From NCBI RefSeq assembly GCF_005497185.1, contig NZ_RJTN01000006.1:1-64000 (forward strand): a stretch of 64,000 nt of DNA, in the 5' to 3' direction. The number at the start of each line of letters is the position of its first letter. The first letter of the stretch is position 1. The notes below the pieces were generated by a model. That model was not told where the DNA came from. It ran no database searches and saw only the letters and a program-made list of their open reading frames with translations. A program made the translations under genes and the position numbers. The stretch is from Pectobacterium polonicum. Lineage in GTDB: Bacteria > Pseudomonadota > Gammaproteobacteria > Enterobacterales > Enterobacteriaceae. Positions 16,428 to 28,002 of this stretch are shown here, one piece after another.

Positions 16428-16856
16428 ATGTCAGTTTCAGCAAGAAATCAGCTTTCGGGTGTTGTGTCTTCCATTGTTGAGGGTGCGGTAAACAATGAAG
16501 TCGCATTGACTCTGGAAAGTGGGGATAAGTTAACGACAGTTATTACACGAACCAGCTGTGATTCAATGGAATTGGCTGTCGGCAAGCCGGCCATTGCGCT
16601 GGTGAAAGCCCCTTGGGTCATTCTGGCATCGGCGGAATGTGGTTTGAATTTTTCTGCCCGCAATCAGTTTCACGGCAAAGTGAGTACCGTGGCTAAAGGT
16701 GCCGTAAACTCGACGGTGCAACTGGTTACCGCGGGTGGGTTGACGCTGACCTCAACCGTGACCAATGAAAGCCTGGAAGAGATGAACATTGATGTGGGCA
16801 GCGAATTAATCGCTCTGCTTAAGGCTTCCAGTATTATTCTGGCTACCCGCAAATAA
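16428..16856 (+). CDS. tandem Mop-domain molybdate-binding protein (molbindin)
   Basis: A 142-aa protein made of two Mop/TOBE repeats. Each begins SARNQ (SARNQLSGVV near residue 4, FSARNQFHGKV near residue 73) and ends with a VILA/IILAT strand. Such di-Mop proteins (ModG type) bind and store molybdate or tungstate in the cytoplasm. The ATG at 16428 has AAGGAG upstream. A 30-codon in-frame N-terminal extension to 16338 also has a Shine-Dalgarno but no Mop homology. It stands at the head of the plus-strand metal cluster, with its own terminator. Confidence 0.88.
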   Translation: MSVSARNQLSGVVSSIVEGAVNNEVALTLESGDKLTTVITRTSCDSMELAVGKPAIALVKAPWVILASAECGLNFSARNQFHGKVSTVAKGAVNSTVQLVTAGGLTLTSTVTNESLEEMNIDVGSELIALLKASSIILATRK

Positions 16857-16889
16857 TTGCCGATTGCTTTAGCAAATCATTGCGCTTTC

Positions 16890-16930
16890 AGCCGATAAAC
16901 TACCAACAGGTACGGGTTTATCGGCTTATT
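16890..16930 (+). terminator. terminator after the Mop gene
   Basis: AGCCGATAAAC (16890-16900) pairs perfectly with GTTTATCGGCT (16916-16926) and is followed by TATTATTG. The T run is weak but the stem is strong. It separates the Mop gene from the transport operon. Confidence 0.7.
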
Positions 16931-17038
16931 ATTGACCGTAAATAATTTCTCCCTTCTGATGTATCCCGCGTAAAACGTCTCTTATTTTGCCGTTCAAATG
17001 ACCCACGTCAGGTATCGCTGGAAATGTGATCTGGATGA

Positions 17039-17066
17039 TTGACCCTGAATTTTGTGTGTGGATAAT
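17039..17066 (+). promoter_or_regulatory. promoter of the metal-uptake operon
   Basis: TTGACC (17039-17044), a 16-bp spacer and GATAAT (17061-17066) form a plausible sigma-70 promoter 50 bp before the binding-protein gene. Confidence 0.6.
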
Positions 17067-17068
17067 AT

Positions 17069-17092
17069 CATTATATAAAAATATATATAACG
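17069..17092. promoter_or_regulatory. candidate ModE box
   Basis: CATTATAT, 8 bp, then ATATAACG: a 24-bp palindrome with the spacing of the E. coli modA ModE box (CGTTATAT-N8-ACATAACG). It differs at one base of the left arm and one of the right. It lies just downstream of the -10, over the expected transcription start, where ModE-molybdate represses modABC. Confidence 0.7.
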
Positions 17093-17116
17093 ATATTATT
17101 TAACTCTGGGATCACC

Positions 17117-18154
17117 ATGGGAATTAACAGGCGTACTTTTTTGTCGTATCTGGCGGCATTGTCTGCTTTACCTCTTTTTCCTGCTTCCTTTGCGCATGCG
17201 TTTGACCGCATTGCCGGGCGGTTTGGTCAAGTTCCCGCCCCTTCTGATATTCAGCGTGTCATCAGCGCGGGGCCACCTGCGGATTTGCTGTTGTTAGCGC
17301 TGGTTCCAGAAAAGCTGCTTGGGTTTTCATCGTTTGATTTATCGGGTGAATCGGGCGTGCTGTTTTCTGAAACTGTTCGCCGCTTGCCGCGTTTGGGACG
17401 TTTATCGGGCCGAGCCAGTACGTTATCACTGGAAAAACTGCTGACGCTGAACCCAGACATCATCATCGACTGCGGGAATGCTGATGAAACCTACCGCTCT
17501 CTGGCGCAGAGAACAGCACAGCAAACCGGTGTGCCTTACGTGCTGGTGGATGGCGGCCTTCAGGATACGCCTTCGCAGCTCCGGCAGGTGGGGCAGTTAC
17601 TGAATGTCGCAGAGCGAGCGGAGCAGCAGGCGCAGTTTGCCGAGGTGATTTTGCAGCGTGCGAATGATTACCGCACCAATACACAAGCTGAGAAGCCGCG
17701 TTTTTATTTCGCTCGCGGGGCGATGGGGCTGGAAACCGGCTTGCGTGGTTCTCTCCACACCGAAGCGGTGGAGCTATTGGGTTTTGAGAACGTCGCTACC
17801 GCAGGGGAGCTAAAAACGCTGACTCAGGTGTCGATGGAGCACATTCTGAGGTGGAATCCGGAGCTTATCATCACGCAGGATGTGCAGAGCTATCAGCACA
17901 TTACGCACTCTGAGCAATGGCAAGGCGTACACGCGGTTGCACAGCGGCGCGTTATCCTGATGTCCGGTCTGCCGTTCGGCTGGCTGGATGCGCCGCCCGG
18001 CCTTAATCGGCTGCTGGGGCTGTGCCGTTTACAAAGCCATTTTGATCCCGTCGTCGCGCAGCACCTTAAAAGCGATACCCGAACGTTTTTCCGCCTGTTT
18101 TACCATACCGATCTGAATGATGCGCAGCTTGAGTCGTTGCTGAGAGTGGTATGA
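17117..18154 (+). CDS. periplasmic binding protein of a FecCD-type ABC importer, Tat-type signal
   Basis: A 345-aa periplasmic binding protein of the siderophore/cobalamin/metal-chelate class (BtuF/FecB fold; class III). The N-terminus MGINRRTFLSYLAALSALPL carries a twin-arginine motif NRRTFL and a hydrophobic stretch, so Tat export is likely. The fold shows in RVISAGPPADLLLLALVPEKLLGFS and LEKLLTLNPDIIIDCGNADET. It overlaps the permease start by 4 nt (ATGA). A ModE-box-like site covers its promoter. The ligand could be molybdate, tungstate or a chelate of either. Iron compounds cannot be excluded from this protein alone. Confidence 0.85.
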   Translation: MGINRRTFLSYLAALSALPLFPASFAHAFDRIAGRFGQVPAPSDIQRVISAGPPADLLLLALVPEKLLGFSSFDLSGESGVLFSETVRRLPRLGRLSGRASTLSLEKLLTLNPDIIIDCGNADETYRSLAQRTAQQTGVPYVLVDGGLQDTPSQLRQVGQLLNVAERAEQQAQFAEVILQRANDYRTNTQAEKPRFYFARGAMGLETGLRGSLHTEAVELLGFENVATAGELKTLTQVSMEHILRWNPELIITQDVQSYQHITHSEQWQGVHAVAQRRVILMSGLPFGWLDAPPGLNRLLGLCRLQSHFDPVVAQHLKSDTRTFFRLFYHTDLNDAQLESLLRVV

Positions 18155-19146
18155 AAAGCCATACCATTACTCTAGTGCTGGGGGTTTTGCTGATCGGCAG
18201 TGCGCTGCTGGCGTTAACGGTGGGACACTATTCCCTTTCTGTGCAGGAAATCCTGCAAATTATCACTGCCCCGCAGGGAGCGGCGTCGATCGAGCCACGT
18301 AAAGCGACCGTGTTCTGGAATATTCGCTTGCCGCGCATGCTGGCGGCGATGCTGATTGGTGCCGGGTTGGCCGCCGCTGGCGCGGCTTATCAGGGTATGT
18401 TCCGTAATCCTCTGGTTTCCCCGGATATTCTTGGCGTCTCTGCCGGTGCTGGCGTAGGGGCGACGCTCGGGATTTTCCTCGGTTTACCGATGCTGTTTAT
18501 TCAGCTGCTGGCATTTGTCGGCGGGCTGGGGGCGGTGACGCTGGTTTGCCTGATTGCTCGTATGGCGAAGCGACACGATCCCGTCTTGGCGCTGGTGTTG
18601 GTGGGCATGGCGATCGGCGCATTAGGCGGTGCGGCGATCGCGCTGATCAAGATCCTGGCCGATCCCTATACTCAGTTACCGTCTATTACCTTCTGGTTAT
18701 TGGGCGGGCTATCCGCCACCACGGTTCAGGACTTAAAAGTCGCAGCAATATTGATTGTGATTGGGCTGGCACCGCTCATTTTACTGCGTTGGCGCATGAA
18801 CCTGTTGAGCCTGCCGGATGAAGAAGCCCGCACGCTGGGCGTGAATATTTTTTATACGCGGCTGTTATTCATCTTTGCGGCGACGTTAATTACCGCCAGC
18901 GCGGTGTCGATTGCGGGAATTATTGGGTGGATTGGGCTGGTGGTGCCACACATCTGCCGTTTGATCGTCGGAGACAATTTCAATCGGTTATTGCCTGTCT
19001 CTATTGCGGTCGGGGCACTGCTGCTGTTACTCACCGATACGCTAGCGCGTACGATCGCCGCGATTGAGCTACCGCTAGGCATTCTGACGTCATCCATTGG
19101 TGCGCCCTTCTTTCTGCTCCTGCTGTTAAGAGGGGAAAGAGCATGA
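18151..19146 (+). CDS. FecCD-family ABC transporter permease
   Basis: A 331-aa inner-membrane permease with about 9-10 hydrophobic segments. Family hallmarks are the N-terminal WNIRLPRMLAAMLIGAGLAAAGAAYQ, NPLVSPDILGVSAGAGVGA and, near the C-terminus, GIIGWIGLVVPHICRLIVGDNF. This is the BtuC/FhuB/MolB class. H. influenzae MolB belongs to the same class and takes molybdate, a precedent for a metal-oxyanion substrate. Start and stop overlap both neighbours by ATGA, so the three ABC genes are coupled. Confidence 0.9.
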   Translation: MKSHTITLVLGVLLIGSALLALTVGHYSLSVQEILQIITAPQGAASIEPRKATVFWNIRLPRMLAAMLIGAGLAAAGAAYQGMFRNPLVSPDILGVSAGAGVGATLGIFLGLPMLFIQLLAFVGGLGAVTLVCLIARMAKRHDPVLALVLVGMAIGALGGAAIALIKILADPYTQLPSITFWLLGGLSATTVQDLKVAAILIVIGLAPLILLRWRMNLLSLPDEEARTLGVNIFYTRLLFIFAATLITASAVSIAGIIGWIGLVVPHICRLIVGDNFNRLLPVSIAVGALLLLLTDTLARTIAAIELPLGILTSSIGAPFFLLLLLRGERA

Positions 19147-19901
19147 CGGATACCTGCATCGCCACGCTTCAGGCGGTGAGCGTCGGATATGGTCGAACCG
19201 TTGTGAACCGCGACATTTCGTTTTCGCTGCCATCCGGGCAGATTACCTGCTTGCTGGGCACCAATGGCAGCGGCAAAACGACCCTGATGCGCACGCTGCT
19301 GGGCTTGATTCCTGCCTTTTCCGGTCAGATACACATCGCTGAGAAACCCATTGCCGATTGGTCTGCCAGTGCGCTCGCACAGGTTGCTGCCTATGTGCCT
19401 CAGGCGCATGACTCGCCTTTTGCTTTCCGCGTGTTGGATATGGTGCTGATGGGATGCCATCCCCGTTTGTCGCTCTTTTCCACGCCGGGGAAACGTGAAG
19501 TCACGCATGCCGAAGCGGTGCTATCCCAGCTCGGGATTTTGTCGCTGAGTCAGCGCTCATACGCGATGCTGAGCGGAGGCGAGCGGCAGCGTGTACTGAT
19601 TGCTCGTGCGCTAATACAGCAGCCTTTGCTGATGGTGATGGATGAACCCGCCGCTAGTCTGGATTTTGGCAACCAGATTCGATTACTGGCACACATAAGG
19701 CAGCTCAAAGAAAGCGGGATGGCGGTGCTGATGTCCACACACCACCCCCAGCATGCGCGAGCCGTGGCGGATAACGTGGTCTTGCTGCATCCAGATGCGG
19801 GAACGGAGCAGGGAAGCCCAGACGTTCTGTTGACGCCGACGAGGCTGGCGGCGCTGTACGGCGTAAAAGAAGCCGATATTCACGCCCATTTCCGCACCTG
19901 A
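19143..19901 (+). CDS. ABC transporter ATP-binding protein, FecE/BtuD type
   Basis: A 252-aa ATPase partner of the FecCD permease. Walker A is LLGTNGSGKTTLMR, the signature is LSGGERQRVLIARAL and Walker B is LLMVMDEPAASLD, followed by MSTHHPQHA. The C-terminal tail is short, without a TOBE domain, unlike ModC. So the system belongs to the siderophore-type branch and not to the classical modABC branch. A 47-nt gap separates it from the methyltransferase gene. Confidence 0.9.
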   Translation: MTDTCIATLQAVSVGYGRTVVNRDISFSLPSGQITCLLGTNGSGKTTLMRTLLGLIPAFSGQIHIAEKPIADWSASALAQVAAYVPQAHDSPFAFRVLDMVLMGCHPRLSLFSTPGKREVTHAEAVLSQLGILSLSQRSYAMLSGGERQRVLIARALIQQPLLMVMDEPAASLDFGNQIRLLAHIRQLKESGMAVLMSTHHPQHARAVADNVVLLHPDAGTEQGSPDVLLTPTRLAALYGVKEADIHAHFRT

Positions 19902-19948
19902 TGTGCAGACAAGCAGCATCTAATAAAAAGAGAAGTCAGGAAGAGAAT

Positions 19949-20770
19949 ATGATTATCGATGAGATTGATTTTTCCGCGCTTTATCAAGCGCATATGGCGC
20001 TGGCGGCCAGAACCGCCAAGACACCTGACCACTGGGATAAGCGCGCAGAAAGCATGGCTGTAGGGTGCGCGGGGCCACGCGATCCGTATCTGGATCGGTT
20101 TATCGCCAACATGGATTTTTCGGGGGCTAAAACGCTGCTGGACGTTGGGTGCGGACCGGGATCGGTATGTCTGAATGTGGCGTCGCGGCTTGAACAGGTT
20201 TACGGCATTGATTACAGCGAGGGCATGCTGGACGTGGCACGCCGTCGGGCCGATGCGATGGGGGTAGCGAATGCGACGTTTACTCACCGTGCTTGGGAAG
20301 ACGACTGGGCGGATTTACCCGATTGCGACATTGTGGTGGCATCGCGATCGACGCTAGTCACGGATCTGGCCGCGGCGCTCTACAAGCTGAATCAGAAAGC
20401 TCGCCTTCGGGTGTACACCACCCACACGGTTTCCCCTACGTTTGTTGATCCACGGATATCGGCGGCGATTGGGCGAACCTCGACATCGTTACCGAACTAT
20501 ATCTATGCCGTAAATATCCTCTATCGCATGGGAATTCACGCCAACGTGAGCTTTATTCGCGGGCAGAATTGCCAAAGGCATGCCGAAACCTTCGAACGTT
20601 TTGCGGACGGTGTGTCCTGGTCGTTAGGCAAGCTGAATGAGGAGGAGAAACAGCGCCTGAAAATCTATTACGAGACACATCAGGATGATGATATTCCGCT
20701 CGTTTCTCCGACGCGAGATTGGGCGTTTGTCTACTGGAATGTGGTTCCGCATGCGGAGTTCGTACGATGA
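19949..20770 (+). CDS. class I SAM-dependent methyltransferase of the metal cluster
   Basis: A 273-aa cytoplasmic methyltransferase. Motif I is TLLDVGCGPGSVCLNVA (about residues 61-77), then YGIDYSEGMLDVARRRA (acidic ribose-binding Asp) and DCDIVVASRSTL. The C-terminal half, rich in Tyr/Trp, has no recognised domain. The ATG at 19949 has AGGA 7 nt upstream; 16 upstream codons are open. Its stop overlaps modD by ATGA. The substrate is unknown. Its place between an importer and ModD suggests it acts on the imported ligand or on a chelator, which is inference. Confidence 0.8.
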   Translation: MIIDEIDFSALYQAHMALAARTAKTPDHWDKRAESMAVGCAGPRDPYLDRFIANMDFSGAKTLLDVGCGPGSVCLNVASRLEQVYGIDYSEGMLDVARRRADAMGVANATFTHRAWEDDWADLPDCDIVVASRSTLVTDLAAALYKLNQKARLRVYTTHTVSPTFVDPRISAAIGRTSTSLPNYIYAVNILYRMGIHANVSFIRGQNCQRHAETFERFADGVSWSLGKLNEEEKQRLKIYYETHQDDDIPLVSPTRDWAFVYWNVVPHAEFVR

Positions 20771-21615
20771 TTTATATCCCAGATGCGTACCTTGATCAGA
20801 TCTTGCTGGAAGATATTCAGTACGGTGATGTCACCACCCGAGCGCTGAGAATCGGGCAAGGGGAAGGTGAAATCACGTTTTTCCATCGTCAGGGCGGATG
20901 CGTGAGCGGGATGCCGGTGGCGGAACGACTGCTACAGCGGCTGGGGCTGCGGGTGACGCATTGCGTTCAGGATGGCGACTGCGTGCAGCCCGGCGAGGCA
21001 ATGCTTGCCGCAACAGGAAAGGTTGCCGCGTTACATCAAGGGTGGAAGGTTACGCAGAACGTTCTGGAGTGGTGCTGCGGCGTCAGTGAATATCTGCATC
21101 AAATGAAGGCCATTTATACCCGCGAGGTTCCATACGGGCAGATTGCCTGTACGCGCAAAATTATTCCGGGTACGAAGCTGCTCTCGATCCTGGCCGTACT
21201 GGCTGGGGGCGGAATTGTGCACCGTTTGGGGTGTGCAGAAACGGTGCTGTTATTCACGAATCACCGCCGTTTTTTGCCGGATCAGGATGACTGGGTCGCC
21301 CATGTTGCCCAATTGCGCCATGCGGCACCGGAGAAAACCATCATCGTGGAAGTGGATCGTCCCGATGAGGCGATGCTCGCGCTCAGCGCCGGGCCCGATA
21401 TTCTACAGCTTGATAAGTTTACACCTGAACAGGTGATCGCCACGCTGTCTTACGCAGCTCGCCATGCGCCTGCGTGTAAGGTGTCTGCCGCGGGGGGAAT
21501 CAACCTGCAAACGGTTCAACGTTATGCCGAAACCGGCGTTTCTTTGCTGGTCACGTCTGCACCTTACCATGCGCCCTCTGCCGATATTCGTGTCGTTTTA
21601 ACGCCAACACGCTAA
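20767..21615 (+). CDS. modD: ModD, NadC-like phosphoribosyltransferase of molybdenum loci
   Basis: A 282-aa homologue of quinolinate phosphoribosyltransferase (NadC) in the ModD branch. NadC-type active-site stretches are kept: QNVLEWCCGVSEY, IACTRKIIPGTKLLSILAVL (the TRKT-PG motif), GGGIVHRLG, DILQLDKFTPEQV and VSAAGGINLQTV. ENH of NadC is TNH here. NadC makes NaMN from quinolinate and PRPP; the ModD substrate is not established. The true start is the ATG at 20767, overlapping the methyltransferase stop. ModD marks this cluster as molybdenum- or tungsten-related. Confidence 0.88.
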   Translation: MIYIPDAYLDQILLEDIQYGDVTTRALRIGQGEGEITFFHRQGGCVSGMPVAERLLQRLGLRVTHCVQDGDCVQPGEAMLAATGKVAALHQGWKVTQNVLEWCCGVSEYLHQMKAIYTREVPYGQIACTRKIIPGTKLLSILAVLAGGGIVHRLGCAETVLLFTNHRRFLPDQDDWVAHVAQLRHAAPEKTIIVEVDRPDEAMLALSAGPDILQLDKFTPEQVIATLSYAARHAPACKVSAAGGINLQTVQRYAETGVSLLVTSAPYHAPSADIRVVLTPTR

Positions 21616-21621
21616 CGCCGC

Positions 21622-21648
21622 CTTCCTGAACGCCCGGATTACAGGAAG
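21622..21648 (+). other. intercistronic hairpin between modD and the receptor gene
   Basis: CTTCCTG (21622-21628) pairs with CAGGAAG (21642-21648) with a 13-nt loop and no T run. It may attenuate or protect the upstream message. Confidence 0.4.
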
Positions 21649-21661
21649 TCGCGACATCTAT

Positions 21662-21685
21662 CGTTATATAAAAATTTATACAGCA
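21662..21685. promoter_or_regulatory. degenerate ModE-box-like site before the receptor gene
   Basis: The left arm CGTTATAT is a perfect ModE half-site. After 8 bp the right arm ATACAGCA keeps only about half the consensus. It lies 27 bp before the receptor start codon. Confidence 0.45.
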
Positions 21686-21712
21686 ATGCGTTTTTTTAAA
21701 GGGAACAATGTC

Positions 21713-23704
21713 ATGCAAATAAAGAAATTGAGTTGGTTGTTGTCCGCCAGTTTATTACCTGTCTCTGGTGCGTACGCCGCCTCTGGTGACGCGGTTGAGG
21801 CCGCGAAGGATAAAGACGTGATGACGGTGTGGAGCAGCCCAGTCGCGGCGACCAACGATATTGTGAATCAGGAGCAGATTAACCAGCTAAACCGACGCAA
21901 CGTGGCTGAAGCGCTGAATACCGTGCCGGGCGTGACGTTACAAAAATCAGGCGGGCGTAGCGAACAACAGGTAAAAGTTCGCGGCTTTGATAGTCGACAG
22001 GTGCCAGTTTTTCTCGACGGCGTGCCGATTTATGTTCCCTATGATGGGAATCTGGATCTTGGCCGTTTTCAGGCTTCCGATCTGGCGGCGGTTGAGGTGT
22101 CTAAAGGGTATACCTCGCTGCTGCAAGGCCCGAATCAAATGGGGGGCGCGATTAACCTCACGACCCTGCGGCCAAAAAAAGAGCTGGAAGCGAACGTGCG
22201 TTTGAATCAGGGCTGGGCACGCGGGCGTGACAATGCACATAACATGGATGCGTCATTTGGTGGGAAAGGCGATCTGGGGTTCTTCCAGATTAGCGGCAGC
22301 CGTCAGAAACAGCGTTTTACCGGGCTGCCTCATGGGGTTGATAACCCGACAGCCGGTAGCGAAGGCCAGCGGATGAATTCCGCGAATGATGATAAGCGCG
22401 GCATGCTCAAGGTCGGGTTCACACCGCGGGAATCCGATGAATATACGTTCACCTACATCAATCAGGAGGGGGAAAAGAATACGCCACCTTATGCGGGCAA
22501 CAGCGGTCAGTCGGCACGCTATTGGCAATGGCCGGACTACAACAAAGAAAGTTATTACTATCAGGGTACCACCAAGCTCAGTGACAGAATGACGCTGAAA
22601 AGCCGCTTCTATCATGATGAATTTGAAAATACCTTGCTGATGTATAAAACGCTGGCGGATTTCAAAAATAAGAACGGTAACTATAGCCACTATGCGGATT
22701 TCAGTAACGGTGCGGGGCTGCAATTAGGGATTGATATGCGCGAACTGGATTTGCTGTCGTTCGCCGTACACTGGAAAGATGACGTGCATCGCGAGAAAGG
22801 GGCACTGAACGCGCCGTACGATCGCTATAAGGACCGTACCTGGTCTATGGCAAGCGAATACCAGTGGAATGTGTCCGAGAAGCTGGATGCGGTATTTGGC
22901 GTGAGCTACGACTGGCGCGACAGCAAGCAGGGCATGAAGCATGAAAAGAATGGGGCGCTAACGAATTATGACCAAAACAATCAGGATGCGTTTAACTGGC
23001 AGATGATGACGAAGTATCGTTTCGATAATCGTGATGAGCTGCAATTATCGCTGTCTGAACGCAGCCGTTTCCCTACGCTAAAAGAGCGTTACACCACCTC
23101 TAAGCCGGCCAAAAATCAGGATGCGCTGGTGAATCCGAACTTAAAACCCGAGCGTGCGCAAAACCTTGAGTTGAACTATCGCGGCGGTCTGACCGAAGGC
23201 TGGGGTTACGATGCCAGCGTGTACTACAACCGGGTATCAAATGCGATTCTGTCACATAACATTACGCCGAGTTTGATCCAAAACCGTAACAGCGGTCGGG
23301 TGGATTACTACGGCCTGGATCTGGGCATTCACGGTGATGTCAAAGACTGGTTAACCGTCGGGGTTAACTATGGGCTGATTCATAGCGATGTGAAGCGCAA
23401 GGATATCGGCAATATTGTCGATTTACCGAAGCATAAGGTGTTTGCCTGGGCAACGATGACGCCTTTCGAACCGGTCAGCATTACGGTGATGGAAGAAGCA
23501 CGTAGCTGGGGATTCAATAATTCAGATAATAACGATAAAACGCGCGGATTTGCGATGACCAATGTGCGGTTGGATTATCGTCTGGGGGCTGGCTTTAGCG
23601 TGAATGCGTCGGTCAACAACCTGTTTGATACGGCTTACGCTTATCAGGAAGGCTATGTTGAGGAAGGGCGTAACTACTGGTTAGGTGTTGCTTACCAATA
23701 CTGA
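21713..23704 (+). CDS. TonB-dependent outer-membrane receptor of the metal cluster
   Basis: A 663-aa outer-membrane receptor. A Sec signal peptide (MQIKKLSWLLSASLLPVSGAYA) is followed by a probable TonB box (DVMTVWSS) and a plug domain (NVAEALNTVPGVTLQKSGGR, then VEVSKGYTSLLQGPNQMGGAINL). A 22-strand barrel follows, ending in the aromatic YWLGVAYQY. The start at 21713 follows AAAGGG. The plug and barrel resemble siderophore or cobalamin receptors, so ligand class cannot be read from the sequence. Placement behind modD with a ModE-like site argues for molybdenum- or tungsten-responsive expression. Confidence 0.88.
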   Translation: MQIKKLSWLLSASLLPVSGAYAASGDAVEAAKDKDVMTVWSSPVAATNDIVNQEQINQLNRRNVAEALNTVPGVTLQKSGGRSEQQVKVRGFDSRQVPVFLDGVPIYVPYDGNLDLGRFQASDLAAVEVSKGYTSLLQGPNQMGGAINLTTLRPKKELEANVRLNQGWARGRDNAHNMDASFGGKGDLGFFQISGSRQKQRFTGLPHGVDNPTAGSEGQRMNSANDDKRGMLKVGFTPRESDEYTFTYINQEGEKNTPPYAGNSGQSARYWQWPDYNKESYYYQGTTKLSDRMTLKSRFYHDEFENTLLMYKTLADFKNKNGNYSHYADFSNGAGLQLGIDMRELDLLSFAVHWKDDVHREKGALNAPYDRYKDRTWSMASEYQWNVSEKLDAVFGVSYDWRDSKQGMKHEKNGALTNYDQNNQDAFNWQMMTKYRFDNRDELQLSLSERSRFPTLKERYTTSKPAKNQDALVNPNLKPERAQNLELNYRGGLTEGWGYDASVYYNRVSNAILSHNITPSLIQNRNSGRVDYYGLDLGIHGDVKDWLTVGVNYGLIHSDVKRKDIGNIVDLPKHKVFAWATMTPFEPVSITVMEEARSWGFNNSDNNDKTRGFAMTNVRLDYRLGAGFSVNASVNNLFDTAYAYQEGYVEEGRNYWLGVAYQY

Positions 23705-26322: not shown

Positions 26323-26922
26323 TTAGCGCCACCATTGGCGAAATTTCTTATAACGTAACAGCAGCAAGATCAGCGCCGCGAGCGCATATAAAATAGGCTG
26401 CGGGGAGAGCGTTTTAACTGACCAAAGATAGTGGATAGGCGCAAGGATGGCGACTAAATAGACGAAATTATGCAGTTTTTGCCATTGCGATCCCAACTTG
26501 CGCATCATTATCTGTGGTGATGTCACCGCCAGCGCCAGCAAAATCAGCCAGCTTATGATTCCCAACGTTAGATACGGCCGGGATATCAGTTCTTTTCCCA
26601 GCAGCGCCAGATGATCCAGACCCAGCTCCAGCAGTGCATAGCTCACCAGATGTAACGTCGCCCAGAAAAAGCACCACAGCCCGAGGAGGCGTCGGCAGCG
26701 AATCAGCAGCGGCTGTTTACCGTAGCGCGCCAGTGGCGTGACCAACAGCGTCGCCAGCAGCAATTTCAGCGCCATTCGGCCGGTAAAATGCTGGATATCT
26801 TTGGCGGGGTCCGCGCTGAACCACCCTTGGTCAACTGACAATATCAGCCACAGCAGCGGCAGAAAACCAGCCAGATGGAGTAGCACTTTTAACCGGGTAA
26901 TGTGTTGTAACGTCAGTCTCAT
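26323..26922 (-). CDS. msrQ: MsrQ haem-binding membrane subunit of methionine sulfoxide reductase
   Basis: A 199-aa membrane protein with about six hydrophobic segments and several His suited to haem ligation ([48 protein letters not shown]). It passes electrons from the quinone pool or flavin to periplasmic MsrP. It lies 78 nt after msrP in the conserved msrPQ arrangement. The length fits the family. Confidence 0.94.
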
Positions 26923-27000: not shown

Positions 27001-28002
27001 CTAAAAATTGTCGCGCAGATTCAGGCCGCGATACAGCGAGGCGACCTGATCGGCATAGCCGTTGAACAACAGCGTGGGTTGACGTTCAACGTTAAGTAAC
27101 CCACCTGAGCCAATGACGCGCTCTGTCGCCTGCGACCAGCGTGGGTGATCCACATGCGGGTTAACGTTGGCATAGAAGCCATACTCGTCTGGCGCCGCCA
27201 GATTCCATGTGCAGGGCGGCTTCTCACGAGTGAACCGGATATGTACGATGGATTTGATGTTCTTGAAGCCATATTTCCACGGCGTAACTAACCGGATGGG
27301 CGCACCGTTCTGCGGCGGCAACGTCTTGCCGTAGACGCCGACGGCCAGCAGTGCCAGAGGATTCATGGCTTCATCCATCCGCAGCCCTTCTACATAGGGA
27401 TAATCCAGCCCGCCGCCCATGAAGCGATCTTTTTGCCCCGGCATCTGTTCCGGGTCGTAAAGCGTCTGAAACGCCACGTAGCGGGCGTTGCTGGTGGGTT
27501 CGGCGAATTTAATCAGCTTAGCCAGCTCAAAGCCGACCCACGGAATCACCATCGACCACGCCTCGACGCAGCGAAAACGGTAGATCCGTTCTTCCAGCGG
27601 AAAGCGTTTGAGCAAATCGTCGATATCCAGCGTGAGAGGCTTGGCGACGTCACCATCTATCTTAACGGTCCAGCCTTCGGTTTTTAACCCGCCCGCATTG
27701 GCCGCCGGATCGGCTTTGTCCAATCCGAATTCATAGAAGTTGTTATAGCCCGTAACTTTATCTTCCGGCGTGAGCGGCAGATCGAGCTTCCAGTCGGCGG
27801 GTTGGCTAAACGTGAGTGGTTTACCCGGTGGCGCTTTGGGTTTATCGCCGCCTTTAAACCAGGCCAGCAGGTCAGCCTGTGCTGAAAACGGCAGTGAGAG
27901 CGCCGCAGCGGAAATACCCAGCGCTTTTAATACGCGTCGACGCTGATAAAAGAGGGATTCCGGGGTAACGTCGGCTTCCGTGAATTTGCGATGTTTGTGC
28001 AT
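27001..28002 (-). CDS. msrP: MsrP periplasmic molybdopterin methionine sulfoxide reductase
   Basis: A 333-aa catalytic subunit that repairs oxidised Met residues in periplasmic proteins. A Tat signal is clear ([20 protein letters not shown], cleavage near AQA). The Mo-ligating Cys lies in [38 protein letters not shown] is the SUOX/YedY-fold cofactor region. It needs Mo-molybdopterin, so it is a local consumer of molybdenum, about 3.3 kb from the metal-uptake cluster. Confidence 0.96.

Follow-up and report, generated by a model that had tools for sequence, protein, structure and literature searches.

A candidate ModE-controlled molybdenum or tungsten uptake locus with a TonB-dependent receptor in Pectobacterium polonicum

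Introduction

What is brought into the cell by a locus that joins a TonB-dependent receptor and a FecCD-type ATP-binding cassette (ABC) importer to a methyltransferase and ModD? The question is raised by a stretch of 64,000 nucleotides of Pectobacterium polonicum (assembly GCF_005497185.1, contig NZ_RJTN01000006.1, positions 1 to 64,000; hereafter the window). The core of the locus is a six-gene set, which encodes a periplasmic binding protein (PBP), a permease, an ATPase, a methyltransferase (MT), ModD and a TonB receptor. The initial annotation, made from the sequence alone, described this set and a preceding mop gene as seven plus-strand genes for the import of a molybdenum (Mo) or tungsten (W) chelate. 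All seven genes are present, the domain searches agree with their assignments, and the ATGA overlaps reported between the PBP and permease, permease and ATPase, and MT and ModD genes are real.

According to our analysis, the locus is likely to be a ModE-repressed Mo (or W) acquisition system operating across both membranes. The proposed link to Mo or W and the dedicated receptor are strongly supported by predicted ModE boxes at both promoters, which are conserved in orthologous loci, and by the Mo genes found beside diverged versions of the set. ModE binding, the direction of transport, the metal (Mo or W) and an organic Mo/W complex as the ligand are what we infer.

Predicted ModE boxes at both promoters

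The ModE box consensus (ATCGNTATATA-N6-TATATANCGAT, scored out of 20) was taken from PMC545781. The two highest-scoring sites of the window, at 19/20 and 18/20, precede the PBP and receptor genes (Table 1). The next-best ModE-type site in the whole 64 kb scores 14, and 30 simulated 64-kb Markov sequences yielded one site at 16 and none higher; with a looser ModE pattern, 2 matches were found in the window against 0.14 expected. The sigma-70-like promoter ends at the base preceding the first box, and this layout fits repression as far as position can indicate it. The number of sigma-70-like sites in the region is not above chance (5, compared with a shuffle mean of 6.4).

The boxes recur in related loci. 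In all seven other congeneric copies, a 17-19/20 box lies between the mop and PBP genes (22 bp before the PBP gene in four copies and approximately 147-167 bp in three), and a 17-18/20 box lies 23-24 bp before the receptor gene. The order PBP-permease-ATPase-MT-ModD-receptor is also kept in another genus of the family (L012), Escherichia coli (L014), Proteus (L015), Providencia (L020) and Citrobacter (L024), each with a 16-19/20 box upstream of the PBP gene. A second box upstream of the receptor gene was found in Proteus and Providencia (18 and 19/20), and none in L012, L014 and L024, where the best sites score 12, 9 and 10/20.

Across 26 loci of many genera, 40 upstream regions were scored (those of PBP, receptor and first-gene MT, plus that of the window mop). 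A box of at least 16/20 was present in 17 of them, compared with 0/800 Markov shuffles and 11/800 random windows of the same loci; the 17 boxed regions fall in 14 loci, some mutually related, and are not independent draws. The scan for MT had returned at least 80 loci, of which 17 (L020-L035, L042) were examined; the 63 dropped had matches covering the MT in part, mostly its S-adenosylmethionine (SAM)-binding core. The box count excludes loci with no window gene besides MT (L027, L030-L035), with MT and DUF2478 and no FecCD match (L026), with a distant PBP and receptor (L016), with distant receptors and no ABC genes (L101-L103), with the PBP in two pieces (L113) or with ModD only (L013, L116-L118).

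The genome has its own ModE, an open frame of 290 amino acids on contig C1 that encodes two TOBE domains and is 38% identical over 274 amino acids to a ModE of the Acidovorax locus L023 described below. Two controls were found in the same genome: a 16/20 box between modE and a ModC-like ATPase gene on contig C1, and a related palindrome preceding a gene identified by eye as moaA, which is among the ModE targets of E. coli. A further 18/20 box (G000:C3:54875-54902; L128 4376-4403) was noted 18 bp upstream of a 97-amino acid minus-strand open reading frame (L128 4064-4357), which resembles the YghW/DUF2623 family. Similar palindromes, perhaps at the same locus, recur in congeneric genomes.

Table 1. 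Genes and predicted regulatory sites of the locus in the window.
Feature	Position	Strand	Basis
Mop, 142 aa, two TOBE/molbindin domains	16428..16856	+	PF03459 twice; TIGR00638
Sigma-70-like promoter TTGACC-N16-GATAAT, immediately 5' of first ModE box	17039..17066	+	10/12 matches; position only
Predicted ModE box, 19/20, ends 22 bp before PBP start	17067..17094	+	consensus scoring
PBP, class of FecB/BtuF/MolA, twin-arginine-like signal MGINRRTFLS	17117..18154	+	PF01497
FecCD/BtuC-type permease	18151..19146	+	PF01032, 288.6 bits
ABC ATPase	19143..19901	+	PF00005
MT, class I SAM-dependent methyltransferase	19949..20770	+	PF13649; 37 invariant columns in 13 sequences
ModD, NadC/quinolinate phosphoribosyltransferase (QPRTase)-like	20767..21615	+	TIGR01334 above cut-off
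Predicted ModE box, 18/20, ends 25 bp before receptor start	21660..21687	+	consensus scoring
TonB-dependent receptor: plug, barrel, signal peptide, TonB-box-like DVMTVWSSP	21713..23704	+	PF07715, PF00593; signal and TonB box by eye

Molybdenum and tungsten genes beside diverged versions

Metagenome-assembled genomes (MAGs) of Burkholderiaceae (L022) and Acidovorax (L023) carry receptor, TupA-like, DUF2478, PBP, permease, ATPase, MT, DUF364, ModD and ModE genes, with boxes of 16/20 and 18/20, respectively, upstream of the receptor gene. The second-best match of the L022 TupA-like protein is the tungstate-binding protein 3lr1 (E 2.6e-14), behind the uncharacterised 3muq. In Stenotrophomonas (L029), modE and the series receptor-DUF2478-PBP-permease-ATPase-MT point away from each other on either side of a 16/20 box. 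Pseudothauera (L025) has MT, permease, ATPase, receptor and DUF364 genes and a weak PBP match, with 15 and 16/20 sites before the MT gene, and a Burkholderiales locus (L028) shows receptor-MT opposite PBP-permease-ATPase, with ModA- and DUF2478-like matches and no box. A receptor relative of P. aeruginosa (47%; L100, CP109682) has a 17/20 box, is without ABC genes and adjoins genes for a molybdopterin oxidoreductase, moaA and narGHJI. The 425-kb record that holds it, with dau, moaA and narGHJI, is labelled a plasmid and may be a chromosomal piece.

Of 14 alphaproteobacterial records with PBP or ABC genes, eight contain in addition genes for Mop, for DUF2478 or for MoeA-, ModA- or TupA-like proteins (Rhizobium L018, Paroceanicella L019, Shinella L106 and L111, Ensifer L109, Indioceanicola L112, Ketogulonicigenium L114 and A. 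ramasamyi L115); the TupA-like protein of L112 scores 229.8 against a cut-off of 400. In six loci (L018, L019, L105, L109, L112, L114), a TrmO/TsaA-like SAM enzyme occupies an MT-like place, a possible hint that methylation is part of the system. The two such enzymes tested both score above the cut-off for ordinary TrmO, and it is possible that these enzymes are either a non-homologous replacement of the MT or ordinary TrmO. P. ferrooxidans (L016) has a distant receptor-MT-permease-ATPase-PBP set with a DUF364 match and a 15/20 site between its two ABC gene sets, and in A. brasilense (L017) the genes of the molybdoenzyme MsrP (msrPQ) adjoin the ABC genes.

Distribution of the gene set

The MT and receptor genes occur in the same 8 of 25 congeneric genomes. 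The receptor was detected in at least 2 of 247 genomes of an order sample (E<=1e-60), a lower bound because no more than 4 candidates were scored in each genome, and ModD exceeded its cut-off in 3 of 398 genomes of a phylum sample; the set is therefore patchy. All seven window genes show dN/dS of 0.05-0.13 in comparison with two congeneric copies, and the gene set is therefore under purifying selection.

The set is common in E. coli, in which 2102 of 5426 complete genomes gave a match and 2094 (approximately 39%) hold at least 80% of the cluster, among them O157:H7 Sakai and the ST131 strain JJ1886. Of 2105 places of the cluster, 2097 are chromosomal, and it lies between treA and ymgE (JJ1886; ECs_1693-1699 in Sakai). 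K-12 lacks the cluster and has ycgY at that position. The six-gene set is labelled iron transport in databases, and the O157 copy has been filed in the literature as an iron-uptake locus; this label, together with the absence from K-12, may explain the lack of study. If the proposed function is true, it alters the view of metal competition in the gut and the rhizosphere, where nitrate respiration needs Mo. Nitrogenase was considered as the Mo consumer and rejected, with no nifD match in the P. polonicum genome.

Several records deserve separate mention. Four records of 4-5 Mb labelled plasmids are probably chromosomes (NZ_OL790811 and NZ_OL790812 of Proteus, NZ_CP134663 and NZ_CP141089 of E. 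coli). In Pluralibacter gergoviae (L042, 3812-6613), the MT is whole and only short pieces of PBP, permease, ATPase, ModD and receptor are left. The PBP piece is preceded by a 19/20 box, and an 18/20 site is found 0.7 kb past the receptor piece; this locus may represent either selective decay or a compact derivative. In one congener (G608, L126), the mop, PBP, permease, MT and receptor genes are each split or shortened, which could be sequencing error or decay.

Mop as a separable neighbour

The Mop protein passes the NCBIfam model TIGR00638 (137.6 bits against a cut-off of 55) and is probably a cytoplasmic molybdate store. Its gene sits upstream of the first ModE box and apart from it, and its own upstream region has no ModE box (best site 10/20). 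Of the 16 of 25 congeneric genomes with Mop at 89% identity or more, 8 have neither MT nor receptor, and no Mop match was found in the fetched stretches around other enterobacterial copies of the six-gene set. In view of this distribution, we rejected Mop as an obligatory member of the set, with which the initial annotation had listed it.

Transporter proteins and rival ligands

The best matches of a profile of 19 PBPs, among 47 PDB sequences, were 4pag (no ligand named), 4ovk and then MolA (3psa, E 7e-29). The structure model of the PBP (pLDDT 80) is nearest in fold to 4pag, followed by 2etv, 4ovk, 4hn9 and MolA, with the siderophore-binding YiuA close behind; with MolA and YiuA both near, the fold search was uninformative as a way of naming the ligand. 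A PFGWxDxPPGxNR stretch is found family-wide in the PBPs. The twin-arginine-like signal is also present in the five other enterobacterial PBPs read and absent from 9 of 12 alphaproteobacterial relatives, and close variants of DVMTVWSSP were seen by eye in five other intact enterobacterial receptors.

An importer of an iron, haem or cobalamin ligand, the ModE boxes of which would only tie expression to anaerobic or molybdoenzyme physiology, is improbable. This explanation agrees with the database label and with the siderophore-binding neighbours of the PBP model. It is opposed by ModE boxes and neighbouring Mo genes that recur in independent lineages, by the presence of ModD inside the operon and by the searches for matching families: no NCBIfam equivalog for iron, haem or B12 was above its cut-off in the window set, the permease reached no equivalog cut-off and the receptor that of no NCBIfam model. 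Control by Fur, which the initial annotation had named as a finding that would speak against a Mo system, was assessed in 13 of the 40 upstream regions (scores out of 19, 300 shuffles each). In 12 of the 13, the best Fur-type match was reached by at least 5% of the shuffles, that is, at chance level; for the window, these matches were 13/19 upstream of the PBP gene (12% of shuffles) and 10/19 upstream of the receptor gene (87%). No cobalamin riboswitch was found in the window at the Rfam gathering score. Fur or vitamin B12 control of the window locus was rejected on these grounds.

Least probable among the explanations weighed is a MolABC-like low-affinity or alternative importer of bare molybdate or tungstate, in which the receptor merely speeds entry and no chelate takes part: it is favoured by MolA as the third PDB match of the PBP profile, by the same type of permease through which Haemophilus influenzae MolABC moves molybdate (PMC4031551) and by several alphaproteobacterial loci in which the stretch examined has ABC genes together with ModA/TupA-like genes and lacks a receptor gene, but the aligned C-terminal segment of MolA differs, passage of oxyanions through porins would make a ModE-controlled TonB receptor redundant, and the MT and ModD are left unexplained.

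Methyltransferase and ModD

The start of the MT gene was corrected to position 19949, where its homologues begin, as more likely than the longer open reading frame from 19901. Among the best 25 of 33 NCBIfam models, none reached its cut-off, and the MT is, judged by its sequence, a family of its own within the class I SAM enzymes. Its structure model (pLDDT 89) has small-molecule methyltransferases as the nearest folds, a generic match. Distant relatives of the MT (32-37%; L027, L030-L034) were found in Desulfobulbaceae and other mostly deltaproteobacterial MAGs near mnmG-like genes (names by eye), which suggests a housekeeping paralogue. In Alcaligenaceae (L026, 5166-10449), MT and DUF2478 genes without an FecCD match lie beside genes like those of metal ABC-3-type transporters (read by eye).

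ModD scores 350 bits against TIGR01334 (cut-off 178.85) and shares the TRK, HR and Glu motifs with the Mycobacterium tuberculosis QPRTase. In 13/13 ModD sequences, Phe stands where the NadC motif LIKDNH has Lys, so that the set of NadC active-site residues is incomplete. ModD is therefore, by its motifs, probably a phosphoribosyl transferase with another acceptor. A paper on extraintestinal pathogenic E. coli (PMC7549933) was set aside as irrelevant to ModD: it concerns mdoD, printed as modD in its strain table.

It is somewhat unlikely that the MT and ModD are a separate Mo-regulated enzyme pair that makes or modifies a small molecule and shares the operon by chance in some lineages, an explanation compatible with an importer of Mo or W. 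In Edwardsiella anguillarum (L021), the MT and ModD genes occur by themselves behind an 18/20 box; no relative of the receptor was found in this genome at E<=1e-20, and its permease relatives reach at most 43%. The locus could be either a remnant or a sign of a separate role for MT-ModD. ModD is also found elsewhere beside modABC (Cereibacter), beside Mop genes (Nostoc) and beside neither (Methylocella), and the Stenotrophomonas locus combines importer genes and MT with no ModD in the stretch examined. The shared presence of MT and receptor in the congeneric genomes argues against a separate pair, as does the possibility that the Edwardsiella locus is a remnant.

Proposed mechanism and points against it

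In the Mo/W acquisition system that we favour, high cytoplasmic molybdate would bring Mo-ModE onto both boxes and switch off the PBP operon and the receptor gene. When Mo is scarce, the TonB receptor would draw in a Mo- or W-bearing ligand for which porins would not suffice because of its size or dilution, and the PBP, of twin-arginine translocation type, would pass it to the FecCD/ATPase importer and so into the cytoplasm. An organic Mo/W complex is the expected ligand because a bare oxyanion could probably do without a TonB receptor. The most speculative step is the last, in which MT and ModD might act on the organic part, for example by methylation or phosphoribosylation, thereby freeing the metal or using up the ligand.

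We advance, more tentatively, a fuller version in which the locus serves Mo/W metallophore uptake or organic-Mo salvage with built-in ligand chemistry. The MT and ModD would release, trap or recycle the organic part, ModD would be a phosphoribosyl pyrophosphate enzyme with a new acceptor, and approximately 39% of the 5426 complete E. coli genomes would possess a second, hitherto unrecognised Mo route. DUF364 would join in the betaproteobacteria, and perhaps the TrmO/TsaA-like SAM enzyme would replace the MT in some alphaproteobacteria.

A number of observations weigh against a Mo/W acquisition system. No box of at least 16/20 is present in 12 of the 26 loci (11 alphaproteobacterial loci and the betaproteobacterial L028), three of which have 14-15/20 sites near the PBP gene (L018, L109, L111). 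None of the Mo genes sought were found in 6 of the 14 alphaproteobacterial records (P. ferrooxidans L016, A. brasilense L017, Bartonella L104, P. aminovorans L105, Methylobacterium L110 and Rhizobium L113). The receptor relatives L101-L103 (32-34%) are not beside ABC genes; nothing pointing to Mo was seen near L101 or L103, a DUF2478 gene lies 4.5 kb from L102, and L104 combines ABC genes with the absence of any Mo gene. For the TupA-like proteins of L022 and L023, there was no match to any NCBIfam model. The PBP model is about equally close to iron- or siderophore-binding proteins (4hn9, YiuA) and to MolA, and MolA is without PFGWxDxPPGxNR, its aligned C-terminal segment being different; since this stretch is replaced in MolA, the ligand site may differ. 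Two PBP upstream regions have Fur-type matches that few shuffles reach, namely 14/19 in the Providencia locus L020 (1.3%) and 13/19 in the Citrobacter locus L024 (5.7%). The MT and ModD of Edwardsiella may not serve an importer. M9, the medium of a published result, is low in iron as well as in Mo, and the paper with that result is silent on molybdate. Finally, among the genes of the set, none for the synthesis of a chelator was seen, the rest of the genome not having been searched for one.

Comparison with known systems

The proposed system is a variant on TonB/FecCD uptake of metal complexes. It shares four protein classes and the overall architecture with the ferric-siderophore and B12 systems Fec, Fhu and Btu, but has ModE boxes in place of Fur or B12 control, adds MT and ModD, and gives no equivalog match. 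Scarce non-iron metals are also taken up through an outer-membrane receptor or as a chelate by the zinc TonB system ZnuD/Zur and in the catecholate Mo uptake of Azotobacter; in the present locus, ModE replaces Zur. ModABC(D) of proteobacteria resembles it in ModE/Mop control and in the ModD neighbour seen in Cereibacter, whereas ModABC is another type of ABC transporter, and the P. polonicum genome separately has modE and a modC-like gene on contig C1.

MolABC of H. influenzae (HI1470-1472) is similar in its FecCD-type permease, ATPase and MolA-class PBP. It differs in the stretch that corresponds to PFGWxDxPPGxNR, and the present locus adds MT, ModD and the receptor. According to PMC4031551, molB is repressed by molybdate, and TonB and siderophores have 0 occurrences in the text of that paper. 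The affinity of MolABC for molybdate is low. MorABC of Rhodobacter capsulatus, as presented in PMC6925177, is ModABC-like and was rejected as an equivalent. No Mo-dedicated outer-membrane receptor was found in the literature searched.

Other features of the window

Approximately 3 kb downstream of the locus, a pair of molybdoenzyme genes similar to msrP/msrQ (YedY/YedZ; names by eye) was noted at 27001-28002 and 26323-26922 on the minus strand. Further downstream, and in keeping with a Pectobacterium-like host, the minus strand at 38159-38575 matches the Rfam family Rev11, an antisense RNA of soft-rot Enterobacteriaceae, with 476.7 bits.

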